Source: Microbispora sp. NBC_01189
GTDB lineage: Bacteria > Actinomycetota > Actinomycetes > Streptosporangiales > Streptosporangiaceae
Length of the DNA: 64,000 nt
Direction of reading: 5' to 3'
Assembly (NCBI RefSeq): GCF_036010665.1
Contig: NZ_CP108581.1
Coordinates: 7,001,501-7,065,500, forward strand
The notes beneath the pieces were generated by a model that had not been told where the DNA came from, made no database searches, and worked only from the letters and a program-made list of their open reading frames with translations. The position numbers were made by a program, and so were the translations under genes. Positions 1,855 through 29,025 of this stretch are shown here, piece after piece. Numbering within the stretch: the stretch's first letter is position 1; each line of letters begins with the position of its first letter.

Positions 1855-2874
1855 ATGAACGGGGACCGCCGTTCCGGAGGTCGGCCGACTCTGGAAGCGG
1901 TCGCCGCGCGTGCCGGTGTCGGCCGCGGCACCGTGTCGCGGGTAATCAACGGCTCACCGAAGGTGAGCGACCGTGCCCGCGACGCGGTGTTACTGGCGAT
2001 CCAGGAGCTCGGCTACGTGCCCAATCGGGCGGCGCGTACCCTTGTGACCAACCGGACCGACACCATCGCCCTGGTGGTGTCGGAATCGGAGCAGCGCGTC
2101 TTCGACGAACCGTACTTCGCCGGGCTGATCCGCGGGATCGGCTCGGCGCTGGGTGAGACCGGCCTCCAGCTGATCCTCACGATGGCGCAGAACCGCGCCG
2201 AGCACGACCGCCTGGAGCACTACCTGACCGGGCAGCACGTGGACGGCGTCCTGCTCACCTCGGTGCACGGCGCCGACCCTCTGCCGGGACGGCTGGAGGA
2301 CTTGGGCGTGCCCACCGTGCTCGGTGGCCGGCCCGTCGGGCTGAACCCCTACAGCTTCGTCGACATGGACAACCGCGCGGGCGCGCGGCAGGCGGTCAAG
2401 TATCTGGTCTCCAAGGGCCGGAGCCGGATCGCCACCATCGCCGGTCCCCAGGACATGGGCGTGGGTGTCGACCGTCTGGCCGGGTACCGCGACGCGCTGC
2501 TCGCCACCGGGATGAGCGAACGCGTCTCGTACGGCGACTTCTCCGAGGAGAGCGGTTCGGCGGCCATGCGTGAGCTGCTGGCCCGCCATCCCGACCTCGA
2601 CGCGGTGTTCACCGCGTCCGACCCCATGGCGGTCGGGGCGCTGCGCGTGCTCAAGGAGAACGGCATGGTGGTGCCGGACGACGTCGCGCTGATCGGTTTC
2701 GAGGACTCGAAGGTCGCCCTGCACACCGAGCCCGCGCTGACCAGCGTGCACCAGCCGACGGAGGCGATGGGCCGGCAGATGGTGCAGCTCCTGATCGCCC
2801 GCATCAACGGCGAGCCGCTGGAGCAGCCGGTCGTCATCCTCGACACCCACCTGGTGATCCGCGCCTCCGCCTGA
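1855..2874 (+). CDS. LacI-family repressor, CebR-like
   Basis: A 339-residue LacI-type regulator. The N-terminal helix-turn-helix and hinge are clear (PTLEAVAARAGVGRGTVSRV from residue 11, LGYVPN hinge near 53), followed by a periplasmic-binding-protein-like sensor domain. By eye the sequence follows the CebR pattern (RTLVTNRTDTIALVV, then an EPYF segment), the family that represses cellobiose genes and is released by cello-oligosaccharides. It sits directly after the beta-glucosidase. Palindromes of the CebR type (TGGGAGCGCTCCCA) occur at 21178, 21376 and 28013, making this protein the best candidate to bind them. The direct link from regulator to those sites is inference. Confidence 0.9.
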   Translation: MNGDRRSGGRPTLEAVAARAGVGRGTVSRVINGSPKVSDRARDAVLLAIQELGYVPNRAARTLVTNRTDTIALVVSESEQRVFDEPYFAGLIRGIGSALGETGLQLILTMAQNRAEHDRLEHYLTGQHVDGVLLTSVHGADPLPGRLEDLGVPTVLGGRPVGLNPYSFVDMDNRAGARQAVKYLVSKGRSRIATIAGPQDMGVGVDRLAGYRDALLATGMSERVSYGDFSEESGSAAMRELLARHPDLDAVFTASDPMAVGALRVLKENGMVVPDDVALIGFEDSKVALHTEPALTSVHQPTEAMGRQMVQLLIARINGEPLEQPVVILDTHLVIRASA

Positions 2875-2890
2875 GGACGCGCCACGAACG

Positions 2891-2931
2891 ACGAGACCGC
2901 CGCACATCCCCGATGTGTGCGGCGGTCTCGT
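2891..2931. terminator. Bidirectional hairpin terminator between lacI and the NRPS operon
   Basis: A perfect 16-bp inverted repeat (acgagaccgccgcaca, nine-base loop, exact complement) followed by ttgt on the plus strand. It lies between the ends of the convergent lacI and NRPS genes and can serve both. Confidence 0.85.
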
Positions 2932-2958
2932 TGTCGTCGGCCCTGCCTTCGAGAGGGC

Positions 2959-5900
2959 TCAGCCGTCGGCGGACGAGAGCAGGCGCTCGGCCTCCTCCTC
3001 CGACATGCCCTCCAGCTCGGCGACCAGCAGGTCCTCCAGCGCGGCCGCCAGGTCGGCCACGGTGCGCCGCTCGAAGATGGTCCGGACCGGCACCTCCACC
3101 CCGGTCGTACGGCGCAGCCGGGCCGCGATCCGCGTCGCGAGCAGCGAGTGCCCGCCGAGGGCGAAGAAGTCGTCGTCGGCGCCGACGGAGGCGACGCCGA
3201 GCAGCTCGGCCCAGACCTCGGCCACCAGCAGCTCCGCGTCCGTGCTCGGCGGGACGTGCCCGGCCGACGGCCCCCGGACCGGCGCGGGCAGCGCCGCGCG
3301 GTCCACCTTGCCGCGGCTGGTGAGCGGCAGCGCGTCGAGACCGACCCAGGCGGTCGGGACGAGATGCCGGGGCAGGGTCCGCGCGAGGTGCGCGGCGAGC
3401 TCCTCCCCGGTCGCGGTCCCCGTCACGTACGCCACGAGTTCCTCGGCGTGGACCGTCACGAACGCCTGGCCGACCCCCGGGTGGTCGAGCAGGCGCGCCT
3501 CGACCTCGCCCGGCTCGATCCGGAAGCCGCGCACCTTGAGCTGCCCGTCGAGCCGGCCCAGGAACTCCAGCTCGCCGTCCTGGTTCCAGCGCGCCCGGTC
3601 CCCGGTGCGGTACCGCCGCGCTCCCGGCGGCCCGGCGGGGTCGGGGACGAAGGCGGCGGCCGTGAGCGCGGGGCGGCGCAGGTAGCCGCGGGCCACGCCG
3701 GCTCCGCCGACGACCAGTTCGCCGATCGCGCCCTTCGGGACCGGGGCTCCGGCGGCGTCGAGCAGGTGGACCGTCGTCGCGCCGACGGGCCGGCCGATCG
3801 GCGGCCTGCCGTACGGCGCCGCGCCGGGGCCCGCCGCGGAACCGCTCCCCAGGCCCGACCCCAGACCGGACCCCCGGCTGGACTCAAGGCCGGACTCAGG
3901 GCCGGCCCCAGGACCGGCACCGAGGTCGGCCCAGGTCGCGATGACCGCGGCCTCGGTCGGGCCGTAGGTGTTCAGCAGGCGGACGCCGTCGCCGAACCGG
4001 CGCCGCCAGCGCGTCCAGGCACCGCCGGACGCCTGCTCGCCGCCGATGATCACCAGGCGCAGCGCGGGCGGCCAGGCGATCTGGTCGATCTCCTCGACCA
4101 GATGGTGCCAGTAGGCGGTGGGCAGGTCGAGCACCGTGATCCGCTCCCCGCCCGGCGCGGCCAGCAGGTCGGGTAGCGTCGCCGCCCCGCCGGGGAGCAG
4201 CACCAGGGTCGCTCCCGCGGCGAGCGCGGGGAACACCTCTTCGAGGTGGGTGTCGAAGCTCAGCGACGCGAACTGGACGACACGGTCGCCGGGCGTCAGG
4301 CCGTACGCGTCGCGCATCCACCGGATGCGGGCCGCGATGGCGCGGTGCTCGACCGCGACGCCCTTGGGGCGGCCGGTGGAGCCGGAGGTGGAGATGACGT
4401 AGGCGACGTCTCCCGGCCGGGTCTCACCCGGCCCGTCCGGCTCCCCTTCGCCCTCCGGTTGCCCGGTGAGCCCCTGCCCGACGTGCCACTGCTCGGTGGG
4501 CCCCTGTGCGTCCCCTCCCCCGCCGACGGTCGGGCCGACGGCGACGAGCCCGGGGGGCGGCGTACGGGTCGTGATCACATGCGTGGCCCCGGCGTCCGCG
4601 AGCGAGAAGGCCATCCGCTCGTCCGGCTCGTCCGGCTCGAACGGCAGGTAGGCCGCACCGGCCCGCCAGACGGCGAGCAGCGCGACGATCGCCTCGGCCG
4701 ATCGGGGCAGGCGGACGCCGACGACGTCGCCGGGGCGGACGCCGGACGCGCGCAGCGACGCGGCGAGCCGGGCCGCCCGCAGGTCCAGCTCGCCGTACGT
4801 GAGCTCGGTCTCCCCGCAGGCCACCGCGACGGCGCCGGGCGTGCGGCGGACGGTCTCGGCGATCATCTCGGGGACCGCCGGCCCGGGAACGTCCGCGCCG
4901 TCGCCGGCCATCGTGTGGATGTCGGCCTCGTCGTCGTCGGTCCAGACGCGCAGCTCGGAGATCCGGCGGTGCGGCTCGGCCGCGGCCGAGGCGAGCAGGA
5001 GCAGGAAGCGCTCGGCGAGCCGCCGGACGGCCTCCGCCTCGTGCGGGGACCCGCTGGACCCGTCGTGACCGAGCGATACGGTGATCCCGCCGCCGTCCCG
5101 CCACGCCTCGGTGTAGAGGCCGAGCTTCACCTGCCGGAAGCCGTCGGGGAAGAAGCCGACGGACAGGTCCCCGAAGGGCCGGGAGGGGCCCACATCCTGG
5201 GTGTGCAGGATGAGCACGGTCGGCATCAGCGCCTGGGCGGGGTGCCCGATCCGCTCGAACGGCACCGACGTCCTGCTCATCGCCGTCAGCGCCTCGCGCC
5301 CGGTGCTCCGCAGCAGGTCGGCGAACGCGGGATCGCCGCCGAGGTCGCCGCGCAGCACGACGGTCTGCGTGAGGTAGCCGATCAGCGGCTCCAGCTCGAC
5401 CCGGTCGCGCCCGGCGACGACCGTCCCGACGAGGACGTCGTCGTGGCCGGAGTGGCGGTGCAGGAGGACCTGGTAGGCCGCCATGAGCACGGTGAACAGG
5501 GTGGTCCGGTGCTCGCGGGCGAGCCGGTCGAGCCGGTCCGCGACCTCCGGGCCGACCCGGACGATCTGGAACCCGCCCGCCCCGTGGCCCGCGCCGCCGT
5601 CGTCCCCGCCGCCGATGCCGCCGATGCCACAGGGCAGATCGGACGGCGGCGGATCGGCCAGCCGCTCCTGCCAGTACGGCACCGCGCGCTCGGCGCGGCG
5701 GCGCTGCCAGCGGGCGTAGTCGGATGGGTGGACCGGCAGCGGCGCCAGTTCCGGCGCGCGGCCGCGCAGCCGCGCGGTGTAGCACTCCGCCAGGTCGTCG
5801 AGGAGGATCCCCAGCGACCAGCCGTCGCCGATGATGTGGTGCATCGTGACGCACAGGACGTGGTCCAGCGGCCCGATCCCGATCACCGCCACGCGCAGCG

Positions 5901-6228
5901 GCACGCCGTCCGCGAGGTCGAACGGCGCGTTGACCCGCTCGGCGACGAGCCGCCCGGCGTGCTCCTCGTCCGTCGCGGCCGGCCACGCCACCGGCGGCGG
6001 GGAGCCGGCCGGCTCCGCGACCGCCCAGGGGACGCCGTCCTCCTCCTCGAACCGGGTGCGCAGGCTCTCGTGCCGGGCCACCACGTCGGCGATCGCCCCT
6101 TCGAGGGCGTCCCGGTCGAGGGGGCCGCGCAGCCGGCGGACGAGATACATACCGAAAGAGGCGTCGCGCGGATCCAGCTTCTGCAGGAGCCAGAGCCGTT
6201 CCTGGTCCGGCGAGAGCGGCGCCCTCAT
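2959..6228 (-). CDS. NRPS module C-A-T, pocket code suggests a basic amino acid
   Basis: A 1089-residue elongation module and the last gene of the operon. The condensation domain starts at residue 4 with an active-site MHHIIGDG (His130-131). The adenylation domain carries TSGSTGRPKGV and TYGPTEA, and its catalytic Lys lies in SRGKVDR. The carrier domain has LGGHSL as pantetheine site. Aligning by eye to PheA gives the pocket DTEDIGTVIK; the acidic Glu239 and Asp278 positions are typical for basic side chains (Lys, Arg or a beta-lysine type), but the exact substrate is uncertain. There is no thioesterase or epimerase. The ATG overlaps the upstream stop (ATGA), showing coupling to the A-T gene; the longer open frame upstream is a shadow. 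Confidence 0.9.
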   Translation of the reverse strand: MRAPLSPDQERLWLLQKLDPRDASFGMYLVRRLRGPLDRDALEGAIADVVARHESLRTRFEEEDGVPWAVAEPAGSPPPVAWPAATDEEHAGRLVAERVNAPFDLADGVPLRVAVIGIGPLDHVLCVTMHHIIGDGWSLGILLDDLAECYTARLRGRAPELAPLPVHPSDYARWQRRRAERAVPYWQERLADPPPSDLPCGIGGIGGGDDGGAGHGAGGFQIVRVGPEVADRLDRLAREHRTTLFTVLMAAYQVLLHRHSGHDDVLVGTVVAGRDRVELEPLIGYLTQTVVLRGDLGGDPAFADLLRSTGREALTAMSRTSVPFERIGHPAQALMPTVLILHTQDVGPSRPFGDLSVGFFPDGFRQVKLGLYTEAWRDGGGITVSLGHDGSSGSPHEAEAVRRLAERFLLLLASAAAEPHRRISELRVWTDDDEADIHTMAGDGADVPGPAVPEMIAETVRRTPGAVAVACGETELTYGELDLRAARLAASLRASGVRPGDVVGVRLPRSAEAIVALLAVWRAGAAYLPFEPDEPDERMAFSLADAGATHVITTRTPPPGLVAVGPTVGGGGDAQGPTEQWHVGQGLTGQPEGEGEPDGPGETRPGDVAYVISTSGSTGRPKGVAVEHRAIAARIRWMRDAYGLTPGDRVVQFASLSFDTHLEEVFPALAAGATLVLLPGGAATLPDLLAAPGGERITVLDLPTAYWHHLVEEIDQIAWPPALRLVIIGGEQASGGAWTRWRRRFGDGVRLLNTYGPTEAAVIATWADLGAGPGAGPESGLESSRGSGLGSGLGSGSAAGPGAAPYGRPPIGRPVGATTVHLLDAAGAPVPKGAIGELVVGGAGVARGYLRRPALTAAAFVPDPAGPPGARRYRTGDRARWNQDGELEFLGRLDGQLKVRGFRIEPGEVEARLLDHPGVGQAFVTVHAEELVAYVTGTATGEELAAHLARTLPRHLVPTAWVGLDALPLTSRGKVDRAALPAPVRGPSAGHVPPSTDAELLVAEVWAELLGVASVGADDDFFALGGHSLLATRIAARLRRTTGVEVPVRTIFERRTVADLAAALEDLLVAELEGMSEEEAERLLSSADG

Positions 6229-8246
6229 CGGTCCGACATCCCGTCGAGCACCGCCGCGAGGTCCTCGGCGCTGAGGCCGTCGAGTTCGTCGCGGAGCGCG
6301 GCGATCTCGGCGAGGTCCAGGTCGTCGTCGTCGAGCCGGTCCATCGCCGCCGCCAGGCCGGCCACCGTGGGGTTCTCGAACAGCTCGACGATCGGCACAC
6401 CGATCGCGAACCGCGCCTGGATCCTGGCGATGATCTGGGTGGCGGTCAGCGAGTGGCCGCCCAGCTCGAAGAAGTCGTCGTCGACGCCGACCGGCTCCGC
6501 GATCCCGAGCACCTCTCCCCACAGCGCCGCGAGATCCTCCTCCAGCGGCGTGGACGGCGGCCGGTACGGCCGGCTCCCGGCGCGGGTCCACTCGGGCGCG
6601 GGCAGGGCGGCGCGGTCGAGCTTCCCGTTGGGGGTGAGCGGCAGGGCGTCCAGCACAACGAGACGCGCCGGCACCATGTATTCGGGGACGCTGAGGCGCA
6701 GCCGGTCCCGCAGGGAGGCCCACAGATCCGCCTCCCCGGCCCCCGAGGGCGTCTCCGGGGAAATCTCCCCGGCGGTCTCCCGGGCAGCCTCTCCGCTGGC
6801 GGTCTCTCCGCTGGCGCGCACGACGTAGGCCACCAGGCGGGCCAGCCCGTCGTGGCCGGCGTGGACGCCGACCGCCGCGCCGGCCACCTCCGGCGCGGCC
6901 CGCAGCACGGTCTCGATCTCGCCGAGCTCGATCCGGAAGCCGCGCACCTTCACCTGCTGGTCGGCCCGGCCGAGATAGCGCAGCCTGCCGTTCTCCAGCG
7001 CGGCCAGGTCGCCCGTGGCGTACAGGCGGGCCCCGGGAACCGCGGAGAACGGGTCGGGCCGGAACCGGTCCGCCGTCTGGCCCGGCATGCCGCGATATCC
7101 CCTGGCCAGGCCGGCGCCGCCGATGTGCAGCTCCCCGGCCTCGCCGGGCGGCACCGGACGCCCGTCGGGCCCGAGGATGTGCACGGTCGTCCTGCCGATC
7201 GGCTCGCCCAGGTCGATGGGGGCGGGCGACCCTCCCTCGTCGACCAGGGCGACCCGCCCGGCCGTGGACCAGACCGTCGTCTCGGTGGGGCCGTACACGT
7301 TCCAGAGGCGGGCACCGTCGGCGAGGAGGGCGTCGGCGAGGTCGCGGGGCAGCGCCTCTCCCCCGCACAGCCGGGTCGCGATGTTCGCGGGGACTCCGCC
7401 GGACTCGATCAGGATGCGCCAGCTCGCCGGGGTCGCCTGCATGATCGTGACGGCGTCGGTCACGGCCCGCGACCGCAGGGCCCGGCCGTCCGTCGTCTCG
7501 TGCGCGGACGCGACCACGACACGGGCGCCGCGGGTCAGCGGCAGGAGCAGCTCCAGCACGGAGATGTCGAACGACAGCGTGGTGACCGCGAGCCAGGCGT
7601 CGCGCGGGCCGAGCTCCAGCAGGGAGGCGAAGGACTCCAGCAGGTTGACCACCGCGCTGTGCGGGACCGCGACCCCCTTGGGCCGGCCGGTGGAGCCGGA
7701 GGTGTACATGAGGTAGGCGAGATCCCCCACCGGCCCCGCACCGTCACCAGTGCCGTCACCAGTGCCGTCGCCGTCCTGCCCCTCGCCCGCGACCGGTACG
7801 CCGTCCCACGCCAGCTCGACGACGTCCGGGACGCCGTCGAGCAGCGCGGAGCCGACGCCCTTGCCGGCCAGCACCAGCCGGATGCCCGCGTCCTCCCGCA
7901 TGTGGCGGAGCCGGTCCTCCGGGAACGCCGGGTCGAGCGGCACGTACGCGCCGCCGGCCCGCCAGACGGCGAGCAGCGCCACGACCATGCCGGGGCACCG
8001 CTCCAGGCACAGGCCCACCGGCACTTCCGGCCCGACGCCGCGGGCGCGCAGCAGCGCCGCCAGCCGGTCGGCCCGGTCGAGCAGCTCCCGGTATGTCAGC
8101 ACGCCGCCGTCGCCGCTCACGGCGACCGCGCCGGGGCTCTCGTCACGCCACCGGCGGATCAGCGCGAGCGCCGTCGCGGCGTCCGTTCCCGGCCGCCCGG
8201 CACCCGGGGCCGCCGGCCCGCCGCTCACCGCGTCACTCACTGTCAT
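6225..8246 (-). CDS. NRPS A-T didomain, predicted glycine-activating
   Basis: A 673-residue protein with an adenylation domain (TSGSTGRPKGV, VYGPTETT, catalytic Lys in PNGKLDR) and a carrier domain (LGGHSL). No condensation domain is attached, so it must work with the free C protein encoded just upstream. The pocket residues read by eye are DILQLGVVWK, very close to the published glycine signature DILQLGLIWK. The start is ATG with GAAAGG upstream, seven bases after the preceding stop. Separate C and A-T proteins are common where loading is done in trans. Confidence 0.9.
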   Translation of the reverse strand: MTVSDAVSGGPAAPGAGRPGTDAATALALIRRWRDESPGAVAVSGDGGVLTYRELLDRADRLAALLRARGVGPEVPVGLCLERCPGMVVALLAVWRAGGAYVPLDPAFPEDRLRHMREDAGIRLVLAGKGVGSALLDGVPDVVELAWDGVPVAGEGQDGDGTGDGTGDGAGPVGDLAYLMYTSGSTGRPKGVAVPHSAVVNLLESFASLLELGPRDAWLAVTTLSFDISVLELLLPLTRGARVVVASAHETTDGRALRSRAVTDAVTIMQATPASWRILIESGGVPANIATRLCGGEALPRDLADALLADGARLWNVYGPTETTVWSTAGRVALVDEGGSPAPIDLGEPIGRTTVHILGPDGRPVPPGEAGELHIGGAGLARGYRGMPGQTADRFRPDPFSAVPGARLYATGDLAALENGRLRYLGRADQQVKVRGFRIELGEIETVLRAAPEVAGAAVGVHAGHDGLARLVAYVVRASGETASGEAARETAGEISPETPSGAGEADLWASLRDRLRLSVPEYMVPARLVVLDALPLTPNGKLDRAALPAPEWTRAGSRPYRPPSTPLEEDLAALWGEVLGIAEPVGVDDDFFELGGHSLTATQIIARIQARFAIGVPIVELFENPTVAGLAAAMDRLDDDDLDLAEIAALRDELDGLSAEDLAAVLDGMSDR

Positions 8247-8253: not shown

Positions 8254-9693
8254 TCACTTCGAGAACGCGCCGCTCAGCGCGGACAGACGGGTCTCCGGGT
8301 CGGCGCCGGCCCGCCGTACGACCTCGGCGAAACCGCGGACGAGGCGGCGCGCGGTCGCGGGCGTGAACAGGTCGGCGCTGTAGTCGAAGACGCCGCCCAG
8401 CCCCTCCGGTCCGCGCCACAGGTCGAGCGAGACCTCGGACTTGGTGTGGCTGGGCGGGATCGTGTGGACCTCGGCGTCGAGGTCGGCGAACCGGGTCCCC
8501 AGCAGGTCGTCCTTGGGCAGGTCGCTGTGCAGGTTGAACATGGCCTGGCACAGCGGCGGCCGGCCGACGTCGCGGGGCACGCGCAGCGCGGCCAGGATGT
8601 GCTCGAACGGCACGTCCGCGTGCCGCATCCCGGCCAGGGTCGTCTCCCGCACGCGGTCCAGCAGCTCGTGGAACGCCGGATCGCCGGACAGGTCGGCCCG
8701 CAGCACCAGCGTGTTGCCGAAGTAGCCGATCAGCGGGGCGAGCTCGCTGCGGGTCCGGCGGGACGCCGGGACGCCGACGCAGAAGTCGGACTGGCCGGAC
8801 GCCAGGGCCAGGGTCGCCTGGTAGGCGGCGACCAGGGCCATGAATGACGTGCAGCGCCGTTTCCTGGCCACCCGCTCCAGCGGCGTGACCTCCTCCGGCG
8901 GCAGCAGCAGCTCCTCGCGCCCGCCGCGCCCCGACCACCGGGACGGCCGGGGATGATCAGGTGGCAGGTCGAGTGCGGGGGCGCCGGCCAGGCGGCCCGC
9001 CCAGTGCTCCACGCCCGCCGTGTGGTCCCGCCGTCTCTCCTGCACGGCGTAGGAGGAGTACTGCATCGGCAGCTCCGCCAGGACGGGCTCACGCCCCTCG
9101 CGCGTCGCCGCGTAACACTCGGCGAGCTCGCGCATGAGCACGTCGAGCGACCAGCCGTCCACCACGATGTGGTGCAGGACGATGCACAGCACCACCTCGT
9201 CCTCTCCCCGCCAGGCCACGCCGACCCGCAGGGGAGGTTCGTTCTCCAGGTCGAACGGGCGCTCGGCGAACTCGCGCAACGCCTCGCCGGAGATCGCGAG
9301 CTCCTCCACCGGCGTCGGCGCGGGTGGCAGCACCACCTGCACGGGGGCGTCCCCGCGCAGCCGGAAGCGGGTCCGCAGCACCTCGTGCCGCTCGGTGACC
9401 CGGGTGAACGCCGCGGCCAGCGCGGCCGTGTCGAGCCGCCCGCGCAGCCGTACGGACCAGGGCGTGTTGTAGCTTGTGTCGGCGGGGTCGAAGCGGCTGA
9501 GAAACCACAGGCGCTCCTGTCCCGGCGACAGCGGCCACTCCTGCCCGCCGGGGTCCGCCGCCGCGCCCCCGAGGGAGCGCAGCAGCGCCGCCCGGCGCTC
9601 GGGGGGCAGCCCGGCCAGCTTCTCGATCAGCGCCGCGCGGCGCTCGGCGCCGCTCACCCGCCCAGTCGTCGGCCCGGTCATCGGCCCGGTCAT
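8254..9693 (-). CDS. Free-standing NRPS condensation domain
   Basis: A 479-residue protein that is one complete C domain with an N-terminal linker. The HHxxxDG motif is intact (LHHIVVDG, His174-175). The linker ([22 protein letters not shown]) resembles docking helices at the front of NRPS proteins. The start overlaps the MbtH stop (ATGA at 9693-9690), which rules out the longer open frame. Its likely job is forming the amide bond for the A-T protein encoded next, giving a split C/A-T module. Partners are inferred from order alone. Confidence 0.88.
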
Positions 9694-11692: not shown

Positions 11693-11970
11693 CTCCGCTG
11701 CCCGCCGGTGTCTCCGTGACCGTCCGCGTCACCGTCGCCGCCGGTGTGCGCGGCGATGTGCCCGGACAGGCCGTCGAGTGTGTCGAGGTAGCCGCCGTCC
11801 AGGTCGACGTCGCAGCCGAACTCGGTCTCGACCATGTCGATCAGCCGGAGGTAGGCGAGCGAGTTGAGGCCGAGCGCGGGCAGGCTGCAGTCGGCCGCCA
11901 GCACGTCGGCGGCGGCCAGGTCCCCGCCGCTCGCCTTGGACACCAACTCGGCGAGGCGCTCCCTCAGCAT
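11689..11970 (-). CDS. Free-standing acyl/peptidyl carrier protein
   Basis: A 93-residue carrier protein. The pantetheine attachment site is LGLNSL (Ser37), more ACP-like than the LGGHSL of the other carriers in the operon. The C-terminus is a Gly/Asp-rich low-complexity tail. It overlaps the neighbouring gene on both sides (7 bp upstream, 4 bp downstream), so it is made in step with the two condensation proteins. Its acyl partner may come from the AMP ligase or from the divergent lipoyl dehydrogenase complex; both are inference. Confidence 0.85.
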   Translation of the reverse strand: MLRERLAELVSKASGGDLAAADVLAADCSLPALGLNSLAYLRLIDMVETEFGCDVDLDGGYLDTLDGLSGHIAAHTGGDGDADGHGDTGGQRR

Positions 11971-21177: not shown

Positions 21178-21191
21178 TGGGAACGCTCCCA
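21178..21191. promoter_or_regulatory. CebR-type LacI operator in the NRPS promoter
   Basis: TGGGAACGCTCCCA, one base off the perfect palindrome TGGGAGCGCTCCCA known as the CebR box in streptomycetes. On the minus strand it begins nine bases after the proposed -10, so it covers the expected start site and bound repressor would block the NRPS operon. Confidence 0.8.
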
Positions 21192-21200: not shown

Positions 21201-21230
21201 AGGCTATGGACGGGACCTTTCGTTCGTCAA
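21201..21230 (-). promoter_or_regulatory. Proposed promoter of the NRPS operon
   Basis: On the minus strand, TTGACG (21230-21225) and TAGCCT (21206-21201) are separated by 18 bases, a fair vegetative-type promoter. The operator at 21178-21191 follows at the start site, with the same spacing as at the epimerase promoter. Confidence 0.6.
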
Positions 21231-21343: not shown

Positions 21344-21372
21344 TTGACAGCACCCCTTACCCCACCTACGCT
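21344..21372 (+). promoter_or_regulatory. Proposed promoter of the 2-oxo acid dehydrogenase operon
   Basis: A consensus -35 TTGACA (21344-21349), a 17-base spacer and TACGCT (21367-21372). The perfect LacI-type operator begins three bases downstream. The 21231-21343 stretch between this and the NRPS promoter holds no gene or motif that I recognise. Confidence 0.65.
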
Positions 21373-21375: not shown

Positions 21376-21389
21376 TGGGAGCGCTCCCA
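21376..21389. promoter_or_regulatory. Perfect CebR-type LacI operator before the E1alpha gene
   Basis: TGGGAGCGCTCCCA, a perfect 14-bp palindrome just after the -10 and 85 bases before the E1alpha start. It is placed to repress transcription of the dehydrogenase operon. Confidence 0.88.
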
Positions 21390-21474: not shown

Positions 21475-22467
21475 TTGACCGTCACCGCCGCCGCACCCCC
21501 TCGGAGCCCACGGCCAACCGTGGGCGACCAGGATCTCCGCTCGCTGCTACTCATCCGGCACTTCGAGCGAGCCCTGCTGCGCCTGTTCGAGCGGGGTGTG
21601 CTGAGCGGCACCACCCACACCTGCCTCGGGCAGGAGTACGTCCCGGTCGTCCTGTCGGCGCTGCTCCGGGACGACGACTTCGTGTTCAGCAACCACCGCG
21701 GGCACGGCCACTTCCTCGCCCGCCATCCGGATCCGCACGGCCTGCTCGCCGAGATCATGGGGCGGGAGGGCGCCCTGTGCGGCGGCGTCGGCGGCAGTCA
21801 GCACATCTACCACCAGCGCTTCCTGTCCACCGGCGTGCAGGGCGAGAGCCTGCCGGTGGCGACCGGGGTGGCCCTGAAACTGGCCGGCACGGGCGCGCTG
21901 GCCTGCGCGTACATCGGGGACGGCACCTGGGGTGAGGGCGCCGTCTACGAGGCGCTCAACATGGCGTCCCTGTGGCGGGTGCCGCTGCTGGTCGTGGTCG
22001 AGCACAACGGCATCGCCCAGTCGACCCCCACGTCCGTCCAGATGGCCGGCACGATCGCCGCCCGGGCGGCGGCCTTCGGCGTCCGCCACCACCACGTCGC
22101 GTCCACCGACGTGGAGGAGATCAGGGCGGGCCTCGCCCCGCTGCTGGACGCCGTACGGGCCGAGCCGTCCCCGCTGGTCGTGGAGTTCGCCACGCACCGT
22201 CTCGGACCGCACAGCAAGGGCGACGACACCCGCTCGCCGGAGGAGATCCGCCGGGTCCGGGAGTCCGACTGGTACGACCGGTACGCCGAGGCCGATCCCG
22301 AGCGGTTCGCCCGGATCGACGCGGAGCAGCGAGATCTCGTCGAACGGGTGGTCGCCGAGGTCTCCGCCCGGCCCGCCGCCCCGGCCGCGTCCGTCACCCT
22401 CTCAGCCCCGTCAGCCCCGTCGGCTCCGTCAGCCCCGTTGGCTCCGTCGCCGGAGGCGCGGCCGTGA
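21475..22467 (+). CDS. 2-oxo acid dehydrogenase E1 alpha subunit
   Basis: A 330-residue thiamine-diphosphate E1alpha subunit of the pyruvate / branched-chain 2-oxo acid dehydrogenase type. The ThDP motif runs from IGDGTWGEG to VEHNGIAQST, and FSNHRGHGHFLA and GGVGGSQHIY are family hallmarks. The likely start is TTG at 21475, with AGGAG nine bases upstream; no ATG is suitably placed. The C-terminus has an extra Ala/Pro/Ser repeat tail. It is the first gene of a three-gene operon, divergent from the NRPS operon and behind a LacI operator. The substrate (pyruvate, branched keto acid or a pathway-specific 2-oxo acid) cannot be told from sequence. Confidence 0.9.
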   Translation: MTVTAAAPPRSPRPTVGDQDLRSLLLIRHFERALLRLFERGVLSGTTHTCLGQEYVPVVLSALLRDDDFVFSNHRGHGHFLARHPDPHGLLAEIMGREGALCGGVGGSQHIYHQRFLSTGVQGESLPVATGVALKLAGTGALACAYIGDGTWGEGAVYEALNMASLWRVPLLVVVEHNGIAQSTPTSVQMAGTIAARAAAFGVRHHHVASTDVEEIRAGLAPLLDAVRAEPSPLVVEFATHRLGPHSKGDDTRSPEEIRRVRESDWYDRYAEADPERFARIDAEQRDLVERVVAEVSARPAAPAASVTLSAPSAPSAPSAPLAPSPEARP

Positions 22468-23441
22468 CCAGAGTCTCCGAGCACATCAACCAGGCGCTGC
22501 ACGATCTCATGGAGTCCGACCCCTCGGTCCACCTGCTCGGCGAGGACGTCAGCGACCCGTACGGCGGCGCGTTCAAGGTGACCCGGGGGCTGTCCAGCCG
22601 GTTCGGTTCCCGGGTGCGGTCCACTCCGCTCAGCGAGGGCGCCATCGCGGGGGTCGGCGCCGGTCTGGCCCTGGCCGGCGACAAGGCCATCGTCGAGATC
22701 ATGTTCGCCGATTTCGTGGCCCTGGCGTTCGACCAGATCACGAACTTCGCCGCCAAGTCCACCGCGATGTACGGCAGGCCCGTGCCGGTGCCGCTCGTGG
22801 TCCGCTGCCCCACGGGCGGCAACCGCGGCTACGGCCCCACCCACAGCCAGAACCCGCAGAAGCACTTCATCGGGGTGCCGGGGCTGTCCCTGTTCGAGAT
22901 GACGCCGTTCCACGACGCCGGCGACCTGCTCACCCGGATGTTCGCCCTGGCCCGGCCCTGCCTGTTCTTCGAGGACAAGGTCCTCTACACCCGGCAGATG
23001 CACGACACCGGCGACCTGTTCCGGTTCGAGGTGGCCGACGACGTGGCGCGGGTGTACGTCGACGGCGCGGGCCCGCCCGACTGCACGCTGGTGACCCACG
23101 GCGGGCTCGTCCATCGGACGCTCGACGCCATGCGGGCGCTGCTGCTGGAGGACGAGCTGGTCTGCGAACTGCTCGTGCCGGCCCAGCTCTACCCGGTGCC
23201 CCACCTGCCGGGGCTGGAGAACGCGCCGCACGTCTGCGTGGTGGACGACGGCACCGAGGGCGGCACCTGGGCGGCCGAGGTGGCCACGGCGCTCTACCCG
23301 CGCCTGTGGGGCCGCCTGCGCCGCCCGATCACCCTGGTCAACTCGGCGGACAGCGTGATTCCCGCCGCCCCCCATCTCGAACGCGAGGTGCTCGTGCAGG
23401 CCGGCCACATCCGGGCCGCAGTCAGGGAGGCCCTGTCGTGA
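22464..23441 (+). CDS. 2-oxo acid dehydrogenase E1 beta subunit
   Basis: A 325-residue E1beta subunit pairing with the E1alpha just upstream. Typical segments are LLGEDVSDPYGGAFKVTRGL, TPLSEGAIAGVGAGLAL and the FADFVALAFDQI stretch, plus the C-terminal transketolase-like domain. The GTG start overlaps the E1alpha stop (GTGA); the longer open frame upstream is a shadow. The protein stops with a GTGA overlap onto E2, so all three subunits are coupled. No E3 (dihydrolipoyl dehydrogenase) is nearby; a housekeeping E3 would be needed for a redox cycle, but not for direct acyl transfer. Confidence 0.92.
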   Translation: MTRVSEHINQALHDLMESDPSVHLLGEDVSDPYGGAFKVTRGLSSRFGSRVRSTPLSEGAIAGVGAGLALAGDKAIVEIMFADFVALAFDQITNFAAKSTAMYGRPVPVPLVVRCPTGGNRGYGPTHSQNPQKHFIGVPGLSLFEMTPFHDAGDLLTRMFALARPCLFFEDKVLYTRQMHDTGDLFRFEVADDVARVYVDGAGPPDCTLVTHGGLVHRTLDAMRALLLEDELVCELLVPAQLYPVPHLPGLENAPHVCVVDDGTEGGTWAAEVATALYPRLWGRLRRPITLVNSADSVIPAAPHLEREVLVQAGHIRAAVREALS

Positions 23442-25030
23442 CCGGCTTCCCCGTGCCCAAGCTCAACAACAACGACACGACGTACGTCCTGGTGGAATGG
23501 CTGGCCGAGGACGGCCAGGCGGTGCGCGACGGCGATCCGGTCGTGCTGCTGGAGACGTCGAAGGCGACCGAGGAGGTCGTCGCCCCGCACGACGGCGTCC
23601 TGCGGCGGCTGCTCGCCGAGGGGGCCGAATGCGAGCCGGGGCAGGTCATCGCCCACCTGCTCGGGCCCGGTGACGAGGCGGCCCCGCACGACCCGGCAGG
23701 CACCGGAAGCACAGAGAGCGCGGGAAGCACAGAGAGCGCGGGAAGCACAGAGAGCGCGGGAAGCACAGAGAGCGCGGGAAGCACAGAGAGCGCGGGAAGC
23801 ACAGAGAGCGCGGGAAGCACAGAGAGCGCGGGAAGCACGGGCGGCGACGTGCGCGGGCCGGGCCTCCCGGCGGCGCCCGGCGACTCCGCGCCGGGCGGTC
23901 CCGGCGCCCCAGTGCCGGGCGGGCCAGTGCCGGGCGGTCCCGGCGGCGCTGACGGCGTGGGTGTTGGCGATGGCTCCGGCGTGATCGTCACCATGCCCGC
24001 CCGCGAGTTGATCGAGGCGCACGGCGTCGCCATGGAGCGGGTGTACGCCCTCGGCCGCAAGGTGATCAGGCGGGCCGACGTCGAGGAGCTGCTCGGCGGC
24101 AAGGCGCTCCCCTCTCCCACGGCGCCCGGAACCACCGCCACAGCCGGAACCACCGCCACAGCCGGGACGACCGTCACGGCGGGGGACGCCTCCGAAAGCG
24201 CTCCGCGGTCGACGGCGGGCCAGGCGAACGGCCGGCCGGCCCCGGCCCACTCGGCAGCTCACTCGGCGACCGACTCGGCCCTGAACGGCGCGGGGCGTGC
24301 CGGTGCCGCCCTGGACGGGGCGGGGCTGGACGACGACGCGCAGTGGATCACGCTGTCCCGGGCGCAGCAGCGGACGGCGGAGGTCGTCGAGCGGTCCCGG
24401 CGCGAGATTCCCGCGGCGTTCACCGTGATGACCGTCGACGTGACCGAGGTGCTCTCGCTCGCCCGCGACCTCACCCGGCGGCTGCGCGCCCTGATCGGCC
24501 TGCCCGAGATGGTGGTGAAGGCGACGGGCGGGCTGCTCGACCGATTCCCGGTCTTCTTCGCCGAGCCCACCCCCGGCCCCCGCCCGCGCCTGCGGCGGGC
24601 CGCCACCGCCGACGTTGGCGTGACCGTCGACGTCGGCCGGGGGCTGTTCATCCCGGTCGTCCGCGACGTGGGCGACCGGCCGCTCTCCGAGATCGCCGGC
24701 GACCTGGCCGGTTTCCGCAGGACGGCCCTCACCGGGTCGTTCCGGGAAAGCGACCTCCAAGGAGGCAATATCACGCTAACCCTCCACACCCACGACGGCA
24801 TCGTGCACGCCGTCCCGATCGTCTTCCCCGGCCAGACGTGCGCGCTGTCGCTGACCGCGCCCCGCCCGGAGGTCGTCCCCGACGGCTCGGGCTTCGCCGT
24901 ACGGAAGACCGCCGCGATCGGCCTCGCGTACGACCACCGCTTCGTCAACGGTCGCGATGCCGCGGAGTTCCTCGGCGAACTCCGGTCGGCGCTCGAATCA
25001 CCCGCGCGTTTCCTCACCGAGAATGGTTGA
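23438..25030 (+). CDS. Lipoyl-dependent E2 acyltransferase
   Basis: A 530-residue E2. Its N-terminal lipoyl domain carries the lysine for lipoylation in ETSKAT (Lys42). A long linker contains seven exact GSTESA repeats (residues 90-131). The E1/E3-binding domain lies at about 183-220 and the catalytic domain at about 290-525, with DHRFVNG (His500). E2 passes the acyl group from E1 to CoA, or possibly to a carrier protein. The GTG start overlaps the E1beta stop. The stop codon lies at the junction with the TnpB element, so the last residues may be altered by that insertion. Confidence 0.92.
   Translation: MTGFPVPKLNNNDTTYVLVEWLAEDGQAVRDGDPVVLLETSKATEEVVAPHDGVLRRLLAEGAECEPGQVIAHLLGPGDEAAPHDPAGTGSTESAGSTESAGSTESAGSTESAGSTESAGSTESAGSTESAGSTGGDVRGPGLPAAPGDSAPGGPGAPVPGGPVPGGPGGADGVGVGDGSGVIVTMPARELIEAHGVAMERVYALGRKVIRRADVEELLGGKALPSPTAPGTTATAGTTATAGTTVTAGDASESAPRSTAGQANGRPAPAHSAAHSATDSALNGAGRAGAALDGAGLDDDAQWITLSRAQQRTAEVVERSRREIPAAFTVMTVDVTEVLSLARDLTRRLRALIGLPEMVVKATGGLLDRFPVFFAEPTPGPRPRLRRAATADVGVTVDVGRGLFIPVVRDVGDRPLSEIAGDLAGFRRTALTGSFRESDLQGGNITLTLHTHDGIVHAVPIVFPGQTCALSLTAPRPEVVPDGSGFAVRKTAAIGLAYDHRFVNGRDAAEFLGELRSALESPARFLTENG
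23705..23830 (+). repeat. Seven 18-bp tandem repeats in the E2 linker
   Basis: Seven copies of ggaagcacagagagcgcg, identical by eye, encoding (GSTESA)7, followed by a partial eighth. In-frame units allow expansion and contraction without frameshift. The lack of silent changes suggests recent expansion or gene conversion. Confidence 0.9.
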
Positions 25031-25148: not shown

Positions 25149-26291
25149 TCACCTCTCCGCCAGCCCGGCGGCGAGGATGTTCCTGGCGGCGTTGACGTCC
25201 CGGTCATGGACCGCGCCGCAGGCGCACTCCCAGGCCCGGATGTTCAACGACATCGACTTCTGCAGTGTCCCGCAGGCCGAGCACAGCTTGGAGGAGGGGA
25301 ACCACCGGTCGATCACCACGAGTTCCCGCCCGTACCACTGCGATTTGTATTCCAGCATCGACCGCAGCTCCCGCCACGAGGCGTCGGAGATGGCGCGGGC
25401 CAGCGAGCGGTTCTTGACCATGGCGCGGACGGTCAGGTCCTCGATCACGACCGTTTGGTTCTCGCGGACGAGTCGAGTCGACAGTTTGTGCAGGAAGTCC
25501 CGGCGCCGGTCGCTGATCCGGGCGTGGGCGCGGGCGACCTTGAGCCGGGCCTTGGCCCGGTTCGCGCTGCCCCAGGATTTGCGGGCCAGCGCACGCTGGG
25601 CCTTGGCCAGAGCGCGCCGGTCGGCCCGCTCATGCCGGGGGTTGGCGACCTTTCCGTCCTGGTCGGTCACTCCGGGGATCGGGTGGGACAAGGTCACCAG
25701 GCTGGTGATCCCCGCATCCATCCCGACGACGTCCCCGCCGGGGGTGAGGGGGCGGATCGTCTCTTCCACCAGGAGGGACACGAACCACCGACCGGCCGCG
25801 TCCCTGCTCACCGTCACCGTGGACGGCTCCGCCCCTTCCGGGAGTGGACGCGACCACACGATGTCCAGCGGGGCGTCCATCTTCGCCAGCGTGAGCCGGC
25901 CGTCGCGCCAGCGGAACGCCGAGCGGGTGTACTCGGCCGACGCCCGCGACCTCTTCCGCGACTTGAACACCGGATAGCCGGCCCGCTTGGCGAAGAAATT
26001 CGCGAACGCCGCCTGCAGGTGCCGCAACGCCTGCTGCAACGGCACACTGGACACCCCGTTGAGGAACGCCAGTTCCTCCTCGCGCTTCCACGCCGTCAGC
26101 AAGGCCGAGGACTCCGCGTAGGAGACCCGGCGGCCCTCCAGGGTGTAAGCGCGACTCCGTTCTTCCAGCGCCTTGTTGTAGACCAGGCGCACACACCCGA
26201 ACGTCCGGGCAAGCTCGGACGCCTGCTCGGGAGTCGGGTAGAAGCGGTACCGGTAAGCCCGCCTCACGCTCTGCGCCACGCCGCACATCAT
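25149..26291 (-). CDS. tnpB: TnpB RNA-guided nuclease (IS605 OrfB family)
   Basis: A 380-residue, apparently intact TnpB. It has the N-terminal YRYRFYPTPEQ segment. The RuvC acidic residues are present: Asp192 in GMDAG, Glu284 in VVIEDL and Asp365 in HDRDVNAARN. The zinc-finger cysteines are CSAC and CAC (337, 340, 356, 358). TnpB proteins cut DNA guided by the element's right-end RNA and help keep the element in place. Two adjacent ATGs (26291, 26288) are possible starts, with only a weak ribosome site; the long N-terminal extension of the open frame is not part of the family. Confidence 0.88.
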   Translation of the reverse strand: MMCGVAQSVRRAYRYRFYPTPEQASELARTFGCVRLVYNKALEERSRAYTLEGRRVSYAESSALLTAWKREEELAFLNGVSSVPLQQALRHLQAAFANFFAKRAGYPVFKSRKRSRASAEYTRSAFRWRDGRLTLAKMDAPLDIVWSRPLPEGAEPSTVTVSRDAAGRWFVSLLVEETIRPLTPGGDVVGMDAGITSLVTLSHPIPGVTDQDGKVANPRHERADRRALAKAQRALARKSWGSANRAKARLKVARAHARISDRRRDFLHKLSTRLVRENQTVVIEDLTVRAMVKNRSLARAISDASWRELRSMLEYKSQWYGRELVVIDRWFPSSKLCSACGTLQKSMSLNIRAWECACGAVHDRDVNAARNILAAGLAER

Positions 26292-26427
26292 GCCACTCGC
26301 CCGGCCAAGAATCGCACGATTGTTCGTACGGCGTTCCGCCTGGCAGACAACCGCCTGCCCATGCCCCGCTCCGCAAGGGGTCCGATTCCGCTCCCGCCCG
26401 CAGGCGGGGGTATCCACGGAGGTTCCC

Positions 26428-27750
26428 ATGAACTCACCCGCACGGTTTCCGACCGACTTCGTCTGGGGCGCGTCGACCGCGGCGTACCAGGTCGAAGGCG
26501 CGACCACGGAGGACGGCCGCGGGCCCTCGGTGTGGGACACGTTCTGCGCGGTCCCGGGGAACGTGCTCGACGGCGACAACGGTGACCAGGCCGCCGACCA
26601 CTACCACCGCTACAACGAGGACCTGGACCTGATCGCCGATCTCGGCCTGGGCAGCTACCGCTTCTCGATCGCGTGGCCGCGGATCCAGCCGACCGGCTCG
26701 GGGAAGGCCAACCAGAAGGGCCTCGACTTCTACCGCAGGCTGGTCGACGGGCTCGTCGAACGCGGCGTCCGGCCGATGGCCACGCTCTTCCACTGGGACC
26801 TGCCGCAGGAGCTGCAGGACCGAGGGGGCTGGGAGAACAGGGACACGGCCGAGCGCTTCGCCGAGTACGCCGGGATCTGCTTCGACGCCCTGGAGATCCG
26901 TGACTGGCTGACGATCAACGAGCCGAAGACGGTCGTCGACTGCGGCTACCGGGAGGGCCAGCACGCGCCGGGCTTCAAGGACGACGCGCGCGCGTTCGTC
27001 GCCTGCCACCACCTGCTGCTCGCCCACGGCCTCGCCTCGCGGGTGCTGCACGAGCGGCACCCGGGACGCCGGATCGGGCCGGCGCTCAACCTCCACCCGA
27101 CGTATCCGGCCGACGACACCCCCGAGGCGCTCGAGGCGGCCCGCCACCAGGACGGCCTGGAGAACCGGCTCTACCTGGACCCGATCTTCAAGGGCTCCTA
27201 TCCCGAGGACACGCTGCGCTGGATCTCCGAGCGCGGCCCGATGGCCGACCACATCCTGGACGGCGACCTCGCCGTCATCAGCGAGCCCATCGACGTGCTC
27301 GGCGTGCAGTACTACACGCCGATCTTCGTGGACGCCAAGGGCGAGCGGGTCTTCCTGCACGAGCGGACCCAGGCCGAGTGGCTGGAGGTCTACCCCGAGG
27401 GCTTCCACGACATCCTGATGCGGGTGCAGCGCGACTACCCCGGCGTGCCGATGATCATCACGGAGAACGGCCTGCCCACCGAGGACGTGCCCGGCCCCGA
27501 CGGCCGCGTCCGCGACGAGCGGCGCATCACCTACCTCCGCGACCACCTGGCCGCCATGCACCGCGCCATGGAGGAGGGCGCGCGGGTCGAGGGCTACCAC
27601 GTGTGGTCGCTGCTCGACAACTTCGAGTGGGCGCAGGGCTACAGCCAGCGCTTCGGCATCGTGTACGTGGACTACTCGACCCAGAAGCGCACCCCCAAGG
27701 ACAGCGCGCTCTGGTACCGCGACGTCGTGAAGAGCGGCGAACTGCGCTGA
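26428..27750 (+). CDS. Second GH1 family beta-glucosidase
   Basis: A 440-residue cytoplasmic GH1 enzyme with the FVWGASTAAYQVEG start motif, acid/base Glu165 in NEP and nucleophile Glu346 in TENG. It is similar to but clearly distinct from the first GH1, about 40 residues shorter without the Ala/Ser-rich insert near residue 320. The ATG is preceded by GGAGG at a good distance. It lies just beyond the TnpB element on the same strand as the dehydrogenase operon. Before the insertion it may have been the fourth gene of that operon. It could hydrolyse cello-oligosaccharides or remove a protective glucose from the peptide product; both are inference. Confidence 0.92.
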   Translation: MNSPARFPTDFVWGASTAAYQVEGATTEDGRGPSVWDTFCAVPGNVLDGDNGDQAADHYHRYNEDLDLIADLGLGSYRFSIAWPRIQPTGSGKANQKGLDFYRRLVDGLVERGVRPMATLFHWDLPQELQDRGGWENRDTAERFAEYAGICFDALEIRDWLTINEPKTVVDCGYREGQHAPGFKDDARAFVACHHLLLAHGLASRVLHERHPGRRIGPALNLHPTYPADDTPEALEAARHQDGLENRLYLDPIFKGSYPEDTLRWISERGPMADHILDGDLAVISEPIDVLGVQYYTPIFVDAKGERVFLHERTQAEWLEVYPEGFHDILMRVQRDYPGVPMIITENGLPTEDVPGPDGRVRDERRITYLRDHLAAMHRAMEEGARVEGYHVWSLLDNFEWAQGYSQRFGIVYVDYSTQKRTPKDSALWYRDVVKSGELR

Positions 27751-27756
27751 CGCGCC

Positions 27757-27775: not shown

Positions 27776-27861
27776 TCCGCCTTCGGGGTGTCACGCCACC
27801 CGCCCGCCGCCCGCCCGCCGCCCCTCGCCCGGCGCGAGGGCGGCGACGCGTGCCACGAGCG

Positions 27862-27876: not shown

Positions 27877-27974
27877 GTGGTCAGGTGGGCGATTTCCCAT
27901 GCACGTGCAGCGGAACACGCCGAACGGCAAATTCAGGGCCGTTATACCGATCTACACCACAATCCCGGAATAAG

Positions 27975-28003
27975 TTGACGCGTTCCTCGGCAAGACTTAG
28001 CTT
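27975..28003 (+). promoter_or_regulatory. Proposed promoter of the epimerase-kinase operon
   Basis: TTGACG (27975-27980), a 17-base spacer and TAGCTT (27998-28003). The operator starts nine bases after the -10, the same spacing as in the NRPS promoter. Confidence 0.6.
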
Positions 28004-28012
28004 TACCTCCGG

Positions 28013-28026
28013 TGGGAGCGCTCCCA
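28013..28026. promoter_or_regulatory. Perfect CebR-type LacI operator before the epimerase gene
   Basis: TGGGAGCGCTCCCA, identical to the site at 21376, at the expected start site of the epimerase-kinase operon and 108 bases before its GTG. Confidence 0.88.
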
Positions 28027-28134
28027 CGTATCGCCCACCCCACTTGGATCAAGGGCGATGAGCTGGGATAAAGTCCCTGCACACCGGCAGATGACCTATG
28101 TTCTTGACCTCGCGTCAGCGAAAGGACTCCCCCC

Positions 28135-29025
28135 GTGCCTGATTACACGATCACCGGCGGCGGCTACCAGGCCACGATCAGCGAGCGGGGCGGCGCGCTC
28201 CGGGTGCTGCGGCATGGAGACCGCGACCTGGTGACGAGCTGGCCGGAGGGCGGGCCGGTCCCCTACTACAGCGGCACGATGCTCGCCCCCTGGCCGAACC
28301 GGGTGGTCGGGGCCGAGTACGCCTTCGACGGGCGGCGTCACCGCCTGCCGGTGAACGAGCCCGACCGCGGGCACGCCCTGCACGGCCTGGTCTCCGACCG
28401 CGACTGGGAGTGCGCGGAGCTGCTCGTGGTGGAGGACCACCACGGCCACGTGCGGCTGACGCACATCGTGGAGCCGGTCGAGGGCTATCCCCACCGGATC
28501 GCCCTGGAGGTGCGGCATGCGCTCTCCGAGGCGGGCCTGTCCACCACGCTGACCGCGCAGAACGTCGGCGAGAGCGCCGCGCCGTACGGCTGCGGGCCGC
28601 ACCCCTGGCTGCTGGCCGGGCCGGACGTGACCACCTACGAGCTGGAGCTTCCGGCCGGCCGGGTGCTGCTCACCGACGACCTGCTCGCCCCCACCGACCT
28701 GGTCGACGTGGCGGGCACGCCGTACGACTTCCGGGCGCCGCGCGTCGTCGGGGAGACGGCGGTCGACCACGCCTTCACCGGCGTGGCGGAGGGACGGGTG
28801 CGCGTGCGCGGCCCGGAAGGCGCGGTGGACCTGACCTGGGACCCGGCGGTCATGCCGTGGGTCCAGGTCTGCACCGGCACGGGGCTCGGCCACCGGGGGC
28901 TGGCCGTGGAGCCCATGACCTGCCCGCCCGACGCGTTCAACTCGGGCACCGATCTGGTCGTTCTGCAGCCGGGGGACAAGCACGAGGCCACGTGGACCAT
29001 CGCGGCCGCCAACGAGGAAGACTGA
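28135..29025 (+). CDS. Aldose 1-epimerase family protein
   Basis: A 296-residue protein of the galactose-mutarotase fold, which interconverts alpha and beta anomers of free sugars. Family landmarks include LAPWPNRVVGAEYAFDG, HALHGL, the GCGPHPWL histidine and AVEPMTCPPDAFNSG. It would act on glucose released by the two beta-glucosidases. The GTG start has AAAGGA upstream. The gene is under the LacI operator at 28013 and lies one base before the following kinase gene. Confidence 0.9.
   Translation: MPDYTITGGGYQATISERGGALRVLRHGDRDLVTSWPEGGPVPYYSGTMLAPWPNRVVGAEYAFDGRRHRLPVNEPDRGHALHGLVSDRDWECAELLVVEDHHGHVRLTHIVEPVEGYPHRIALEVRHALSEAGLSTTLTAQNVGESAAPYGCGPHPWLLAGPDVTTYELELPAGRVLLTDDLLAPTDLVDVAGTPYDFRAPRVVGETAVDHAFTGVAEGRVRVRGPEGAVDLTWDPAVMPWVQVCTGTGLGHRGLAVEPMTCPPDAFNSGTDLVVLQPGDKHEATWTIAAANEED

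Follow-up and report, generated by a model that had tools for sequence, protein, structure and literature searches.

Thaxtomin-type gene clusters are defined by P450 tailoring and by the AraC-type activator TxtR. In Streptomyces scabiei, this cluster (txt), which encodes a nonribosomal peptide synthetase (NRPS), is repressed by CebR and relieved by cello-oligosaccharides (PMC12527672, PMC8914351). Among the clusters, thaxtomin is the direct CebR target and, in the literature found, the only natural product for which such direct control is documented (PMC8914351, PMC12527672). Outside this system, the CelR/CebR regulon of Thermobifida fusca has a palindrome, in common with the locus described here, before ABC transporter, beta-glucosidase, regulator and cellulase genes (PMC3377646). 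One CelR site is located inside a polyketide synthase gene in A. mirum, and a search of the same text for "nonribosomal" and "peptide synth" gave no match (PMC3377646). The present analysis deals with a stretch of 64,000 nt, hereafter the window, corresponding to bases 7,001,501-7,065,500 of a one-contig 7.37 Mb Microbispora genome. As judged from its sequence, the window very probably holds a cellobiose-utilisation locus carrying a CebR-repressed NRPS cluster, which suggests that in a group of soil bacteria the breakdown of plant material may switch on a small peptide.

CebR control of an NRPS is already known from thaxtomin; the present case differs from it. The txt sites, which are one-mismatch versions of the window's palindrome, are located within txtB and 786-900 nt before txtR/txtA (PMC12527672), whereas those of the window lie just past core promoters. 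The cluster of the window is moreover located within the ceb locus itself. Neither a P450 nor an AraC domain was found among the Pfam-scanned proteins of positions 198-30055, so that by the definition given above these proteins do not constitute a thaxtomin-type cluster; an earlier reading of the letters alone (the sequence-only reading) had likewise set the pathway apart from thaxtomin for want of a nitrotryptophan-type NRPS or a P450. Rotihibin of S. scabiei offers another comparison: it is made by a lipopeptide NRPS system whose proteins change with cellobiose or glucose, but it is unaffected by the loss of cebR (PMC8552735), and its expression is slightly lowered by cello-oligosaccharides (PMC8914351). 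Among the matches listed, no title or abstract of the open-licence literature describes a wiring like that of the window.

Directly upstream of the window, a solute-binding protein and two permeases occupy the cebEFG position, preceded by two perfect palindromes. They are followed by a GH1 beta-glucosidase in the BglC position (198..1826, plus strand; Pfam GH1, 6.8e-160 from residue 80, with a true start probably near 420) and by a CebR/CelR-type repressor of the LacI family (1855..2874, plus strand). The NRPS operon occupies the minus strand from about 20957 to 2959. In the direction of transcription, and with C, A, T and TE denoting condensation, adenylation, carrier and thioesterase domains, it encodes C-A-T-TE-MFS, an acyl ligase, C-T, a small carrier protein, C, C, A-T and C-A-T. 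A plus-strand operon for a dehydrogenase-like complex, E1-alpha/E1-beta/E2 (21475-25030), diverges from it, followed by a TnpB open reading frame (ORF) on the opposite strand, a second GH1 gene, and then an epimerase and a kinase gene. The repressor, the two beta-glucosidases and the two operons announced by the sequence-only reading were all recovered with Pfam, except that the NRPS operon comprises eight ORFs and not nine.

The repressor (Pfam LacI and Peripla_BP_3) has as its closest solved relative PDB 5ysz (E 8.7e-123), which we take to be the CelR protein of T. fusca, and the recognition helices of the two proteins are identical. This helix, GRGTVSRVINGS, is present in the 1855-2874 protein and absent from the other 18 of the 19 LacI-type matches of the genome, the nearest paralogue being 53% identical. 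Across the nine Microbispora loci compared, the repressor is 94-100% identical. A LacI-family repressor with the CebR/CelR recognition helix is thus found within the cebEFG-bglC locus itself.

Three TGGGAGCGCTCCCA palindromes are present in the window. Those assigned to the dehydrogenase operon (21376..21389) and to the epimerase operon (28013..28026) are perfect, and the one assigned to the NRPS operon (21178..21191) has a single mismatch (TGGGAACGCTCCCA). Loose matching proves nothing here, since with up to three mismatches the window holds five matches against a mean of 7.98 in shuffled sequence, and hence no enrichment. With zero or one mismatch, however, 19 sites are found in the 7.37 Mb genome against a single one for the reversed pattern, and on this ground an origin of the palindromes by chance was rejected. 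In 14 relatives, the same class numbers 13-21 sites against 1-5 for the control. Five of the 19 genome sites fall within about 31 kb at this locus, two of them just upstream of the window, before cebE. Elsewhere in the genome, the palindromes adjoin genes for GH48-CBM2, two GH6-CBM2, GH9-CBM2 and LPMO10-CBM2 proteins, so that the same 14-bp palindrome, more frequent than expected by chance, is located both at the target promoters and on cellulase genes, as in a CebR/CelR regulon. The cebE/F/G genes are also among the neighbours, together with a polysaccharide lyase, a LacI gene accompanied by a protein kinase, an anti-sigma-type ATPase and a LuxR-type regulator. At the LacI gene (L067), two perfect sites (5275 and 7847) flank the protein kinase gene; CelR sites at protein kinases have also been reported (PMC3377646).

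All three predicted operators lie 3-9 bp past the -10 box of a promoter of the form TTGAC[AG]-17/18-TAnnnT directed towards the NRPS, E1 or epimerase operon. The sequence-only reading had placed three CebR-type palindromes on these promoters; all three are indeed found past them, even if the one at 21178 is imperfect. The predicted NRPS promoter (21201..21230, minus strand) combines a -35 box TTGACG (21225-21230) and a -10 box TAGCCT (21201-21206) separated by 18 bp. Its E1 counterpart (21344..21372, plus strand) combines TTGACA (21344-21349) and TACGCT (21367-21372) over 17 bp, and the predicted epimerase promoter (27975..28003, plus strand) TTGACG and TAGCTT, also over 17 bp. When one mismatch was allowed in TTGAC and the spacers ranged from 16 to 19, the promoter pattern was detected at 51 of the 74 sites examined, compared with 16 among 4000 random positions and 21 among 1396 shifted ones. 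Three of the loci appear twice under different identifiers (L027/L102, L028/L103 and L046/L106, the last pair overlapping); with the duplicates removed, the count is 47 of 69 sites. Conservation was measured on 26 aligned divergent regions from eight genus codes. These were selected for holding two sites, so that operator conservation is partly a matter of choice; the promoter elements were no selection criterion. Over the 25 regions other than the window, the promoter elements are 0.93-0.97 identical to those of the window (0.96 and 0.96 for the NRPS promoter, 0.97 and 0.93 for the E1 promoter), whereas identity at the other 230 positions is 0.53 on average. For the 15 rows outside Microbispora, the averages are 0.955 for all elements including the operators and 0.385 for the rest. 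The operators of the NRPS and E1 promoters are 198 bp apart in the window; in L107, L133 and L135 this distance is 212-229 bp.

The arrangement extends well beyond a single genome. The nearest named relatives belong to Microbispora (92% identity with M. triticiradicis over one NRPS protein). Searching named genomes with the stand-alone C protein yielded 43 loci, of which 13 (10 Microbispora and 3 Microtetraspora) were treated as orthologous clusters; Thermocatellispora (L046) has part of the cluster, and Sphaerimonospora (L033) contributes a contig-end fragment. The cebR and bglC genes adjoin the NRPS in 10/10 Microbispora loci, and the NRPS/dehydrogenase pair is conserved across genera. Eleven of the 13 orthologous loci have both sites, at a distance of 198-200 bp; L016 has one site and L024 none, both loci being truncated by the end of the stretch. 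Of 297 genomes that were sampled from the order, 73 have a double-operator pattern, some places not being at this cluster; none of the genomes listed has the control. Within Microbispora, the pattern is present in 12 of 15 genomes and absent from three. Five genomes (G114, G285, G305, G679 and G687) have three double-operator places each; in G114, one of the extra places (L265) lies ahead of another C-A-T-TE-MFS NRPS.

Of 297 genomes sampled from the family, 91 have relatives of E1-alpha (123 matches); in a sample of 394 from the class, the gene is present in 16, and 14 of the 16 belong to this family. Besides the window's own, 119 of these loci were taken, three located at contig ends or partial being left out. 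Loci with at least one site in the stretch, referred to as wired, number 46 (45 with two or more sites) and span 12 genus codes; the 73 others, with none, are referred to as site-less. An E1-alpha/beta tree built by a quick method without bootstrap accounts for the presence of sites with two changes, compared with about 37 on average for shuffled labels. One group (SH-aLRT 99) unites 45 wired rows, including the window, all of which carry sites; two wired loci of genus code g4 fall outside it. E1-alpha, E1-beta and E2 are contiguous in 46/46 wired and 71/73 site-less loci. In the site-less loci, C-T and E1 share a strand wherever C-T is found (57/57, 16 loci having no C-T match), with C-T directly before E1 in 56 of 57; in the wired loci, C-T lies on the strand opposite E1 in 24/24 (22 loci without a C-T match). 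These arrangements identify E1/E2 as part of the NRPS pathway, and the wiring accompanies a distribution of this pathway over both strands, seen for the window and its orthologues as a divergent pair with one predicted operator each.

From the genes, sites, promoter-like elements, conservation and wired clade read in these sequences, a regulatory circuit can be proposed in which binding, release of the repressor by sugar and induction are the deduced steps. Without cello-oligosaccharides, CebR (1855-2874) would block transcription of the NRPS, dehydrogenase and epimerase operons by sitting on the palindromes that follow their -10 boxes. Cellulases of the same regulon would release cellobiose and cellotriose, CebEFG would import them, and CebR would then let go, allowing the three operons to start together. 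The proposal of the sequence-only reading, an NRPS pathway wired to the cellobiose repressor, is supported, at the level of sequence, by the recognition helix, the roadblock sites, the conserved pair, the main clade and the palindromes of the cellulase genes.

Several observations weigh against this regulation. The 600 bp upstream of E1-alpha contain a site in only 27 of the 46 wired loci, and two sites in 25; the other 19 loci carry theirs elsewhere in the stretch. The NRPS-side site is mismatched in 12 of the 12 orthologous loci showing it and may bind weakly. Some genome sites adjoin genes with no evident link to cellulose (aldehyde dehydrogenase, CofD, MscL). Outside the window, only 1 of 16 sites of the same genome has the promoter pattern; the roadblock position is therefore particular to this locus, and the promoter signal stems from these clusters (46 of 53 distinct sites). 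Finally, the clusters of S. scabiei responding to cello-oligosaccharides are mostly independent of CebR (PMC8914351).

The product of the pathway can be approached through its domains. All ORFs of the NRPS operon lie on the minus strand and were assigned with Pfam. The first, C-A-T-TE, shares a single open frame with an MFS exporter that follows it (15180..20957). A 13-codon leader ORF (20954-20995, minus strand) overlaps by its stop the GTG start of this gene, nrpsA; a similar short leader was seen by eye in the other Microbispora and Microtetraspora loci inspected, but not in L108/L110. Next come a FadD-like acyl ligase/adenylation protein (13540..15183; AMP-binding; its top NCBIfam models are acyl-CoA ligases, the best 25 listed all below cutoff), a C-T protein without A domain (11964..13538) and a small carrier protein (11689..11970; PP-binding at 6.5e-05, above the curated cutoff, with a GLNSL serine motif). 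The operon ends with a diverged stand-alone condensation-like protein (9875..11692; 7.9e-21), a stand-alone condensation domain (8254..9693, in an ORF extending to 9819; 8.4e-83), an A-T protein (6225..8246) and a C-A-T protein of uncertain start (2959..6252). C, A, T and TE domains, those of an NRPS assembly line, are therefore gathered in one operon, and HxxxDG is found in all five C domains, including the two stand-alone ones. The A-domain codes are DTEDIGTVI for C-A-T, DIL(Q)LGVVW for A-T and DFT(K)LGHVG for C-A-T-TE, the fourth letter of the last two being read by eye. Over the 13 orthologous loci they are constant except for an I/V change, the unreliable fourth letter being left aside. 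These codes are presumably of the Lys/beta-Lys, Gly-like and Asp-like types respectively, which suggests modules for Gly, Lys-type and Asp-type residues.

The operon contains five carrier domains for four activating domains, so that one carrier needs another loader, for which E1/E2 is the candidate. TPP-type E1-alpha (21475..22467, plus strand; Pfam E1_dh 6.7e-43, GDG...N motif) and E1-beta (22464..23441, plus strand; Transket_pyr and Transketolase_C in the longer frame; the NCBIfam E1 beta model of pyruvate dehydrogenase (PDH) is below cutoff) are encoded in the cluster with an E2 composed of a lipoyl domain and an acyltransferase (23423..25030, plus strand), as expected of a carrier-priming pair. 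A related device is proposed for the pepteridine cluster of Photorhabdus, in which E1-like and E2-like subunits are likewise accompanied by T and C domains, no E3 is encoded, and direct priming of T is proposed (PMC5384830). The pepteridine system has its E2 fused to T and C and makes a pteridine, whereas in the window C-T is a separate protein of a peptide assembly line. Another parallel, by description, exists with NapB/NapD of naphthyridinomycin and DinU/DinS of dnacin, which we take to be E1/E2-like. These two-component transketolase-type proteins give a hydroxyethyl unit to an NRPS carrier protein (PMC7570522). In the most likely scheme, E1-alpha/beta and the lipoyl E2 of the window would take an acyl group that stems from sugar catabolism and load it onto a carrier domain without its own A domain (the small carrier protein or C-T). 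The FadD-like ligase would supply a second acid, the NRPS modules would add Gly-, Lys- and Asp-type residues, TE would free the acyl-peptide and the fused MFS would export it. As a whole, this predicted chemistry is tentative and credited with slightly less than an even chance. Two points count against it: the residues read from the A-domain codes are presumptive, and E2 is devoid of the usual catalytic Asp. Indeed, alignment to a solved E2 having DHRIIDG shows that the E2 of the window departs from the canonical motif of 2-oxoacid dehydrogenases, with DHRxxNG in place of DHRxxDG, and this replacement of Asp by Asn suggests an altered transfer.

A competing explanation, which concerns the chemistry and is independent of the regulation, is that E1/E2 constitutes an ordinary 2-oxoacid dehydrogenase forming acetyl- or branched acyl-CoA without charging any carrier. 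The match of E1 and E2 to the PDH and branched-chain 2-oxoacid dehydrogenase families speaks for it, as does a FadD-like ligase that could work on free acids and CoA. The NCBIfam PDH models are nevertheless far below cutoff, and E2 has no Pfam E3-binding match. Moreover, the E2 motif is DHRxxNG in 114 of 119 loci (other variants in 2, not found in 3) and DHRxxDG in none, and both C-T without A domain and the free carrier protein require a loader. This ordinary dehydrogenase is a serious possibility, albeit on balance a doubtful one.

A second CebR-wired NRPS cluster was detected in the same genome (L240:12972-17728; L241:11-3499). A perfect palindrome at 1,317,727 (L062:4728; G000:C1:1317727) separates a plus-strand NRPS from a minus-strand operon encoding TauD, a glycosyltransferase (GT) and a protein with a carrier domain. 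Pfam gave this carrier domain only; the protein is presumably FkbH-like, from a motif seen by eye. The NRPS is taken as C-A-T-TE-MFS; Pfam recognises A-T-TE-MFS in its second half, and 1946 positions aligned with nrpsA show 42% identity. The FkbH-like protein is present in 14 of 15 Microbispora genomes, with a perfect palindrome in 14/14 loci, and in two genomes of one other genus among 200 sampled from the family, both with a perfect palindrome. In five loci (L115, L116, L137, L151 and L184, with flanks L258-L262), GT/TauD/NRPS2 genes occur alongside E1/E2 and no FkbH match was reported. FkbH-type and E1/E2-type starters may replace one another, and these five loci fit such an exchange without proving it. 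Another inverted repeat, TATCACG-TAT-CGTGATA (L062:4702-4718), precedes the second cluster's CebR palindrome by 9 bp.

The NRPS cassettes vary among the wired loci. NRPS adenylation matches, of differing kinds, are found in 44/46 wired and 62/73 site-less loci, and in eleven wired loci the C-A-T-TE-MFS proteins are 62-64% identical to the second NRPS of the window's genome. When an extra flank was taken for 15 wired loci, cebR (81-91% identity) was found with cebE in 7 (L258-L262, L269 and L270) but not in the other 8, at least one of which (L264) had been taken from the wrong side. It is conceivable, if rather doubtful at this stage, that the cellobiose locus of the Streptosporangiaceae permanently accommodates NRPS cassettes that are exchanged for one another, with cebEFG-bglC-cebR and E1/E2-glucosidase-epimerase-kinase as the flanks that stay. 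CebR-induced E1/E2 would then make an acyl unit from sugar catabolites, so that cellulose breakdown would both trigger and feed a family of secreted acyl-peptides. The window's own genome also contains two site-less E1-alpha/beta/E2 sets near other NRPS genes (L119 and L120).

As for the regulation, the sites could serve only the sugar-catabolic genes (beta-glucosidase, epimerase, kinase and a pyruvate-dehydrogenase-like complex), the NRPS being a bystander. Such genes are indeed present: beside bglC, the locus encodes a second GH1 beta-glucosidase, bgl2 (26290..27750, plus strand; Pfam 1.3e-157, NCBIfam BGL above cutoff), whose true start may be later since the domain begins near residue 51, an aldose 1-epimerase (28135..29025, plus strand; Pfam 1.2e-44) and an APH/fructosamine-kinase-like kinase (29027..30055, plus strand; Pfam). 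Among the 46 wired loci, 27 have a relative of bgl2 and 29 a relative of the epimerase, against 0/73 site-less ones for either, and CelR sites near pyruvate-dehydrogenase-related genes are reported in Streptosporangium roseum (PMC3377646). Yet the 21178 site lies 9 bp past the -10 box of the NRPS operon's own promoter, both being kept in the compared regions, and the second NRPS cluster also has a site. In seven wired loci (L104, L105 and L108-L112), both sites are located between NRPS and E1 with no bgl2, epimerase or kinase match in the stretch. In the site-less loci, E1/E2 co-occurs with the ligase (56/73) and with C-T (57/73). The bystander explanation is consequently very unlikely. Use of the palindromes by another LacI-family regulator, for which the number of LacI-type matches, the nearest paralogue and the LacI gene beside two sites in L067 could be invoked, is less probable still, the GRGTVSRVINGS helix being confined to the 1855-2874 protein, within the cebEFG-bglC locus and with sites before cebE.

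If CebR control of the window's cluster is true, it names cellobiose or cellotriose as the elicitor for dozens of clusters of unknown product, located outside thaxtomin and over 12 genus codes, and cellulose decomposers would be predicted to release a defined class of peptides while feeding.

Two TnpB sequences and a gene pair complete the region. The TnpB ORF between E2 and the second beta-glucosidase (25149-26579) is of IS605 type and may part this glucosidase from the E1 promoter. Just beyond the kinase, a FAD-binding monooxygenase and a class-II DAHP (3-deoxy-D-arabino-heptulosonate 7-phosphate) synthase gene are adjacent on the plus strand (30891-33487); the search for a CebR site before both found none. 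With regard to a siderophore, no obvious hydroxylase or aryl-acid gene was found among the scanned proteins of 198-30055, this pair lying just beyond. A TnpB fragment (30109-30753) follows the kinase.

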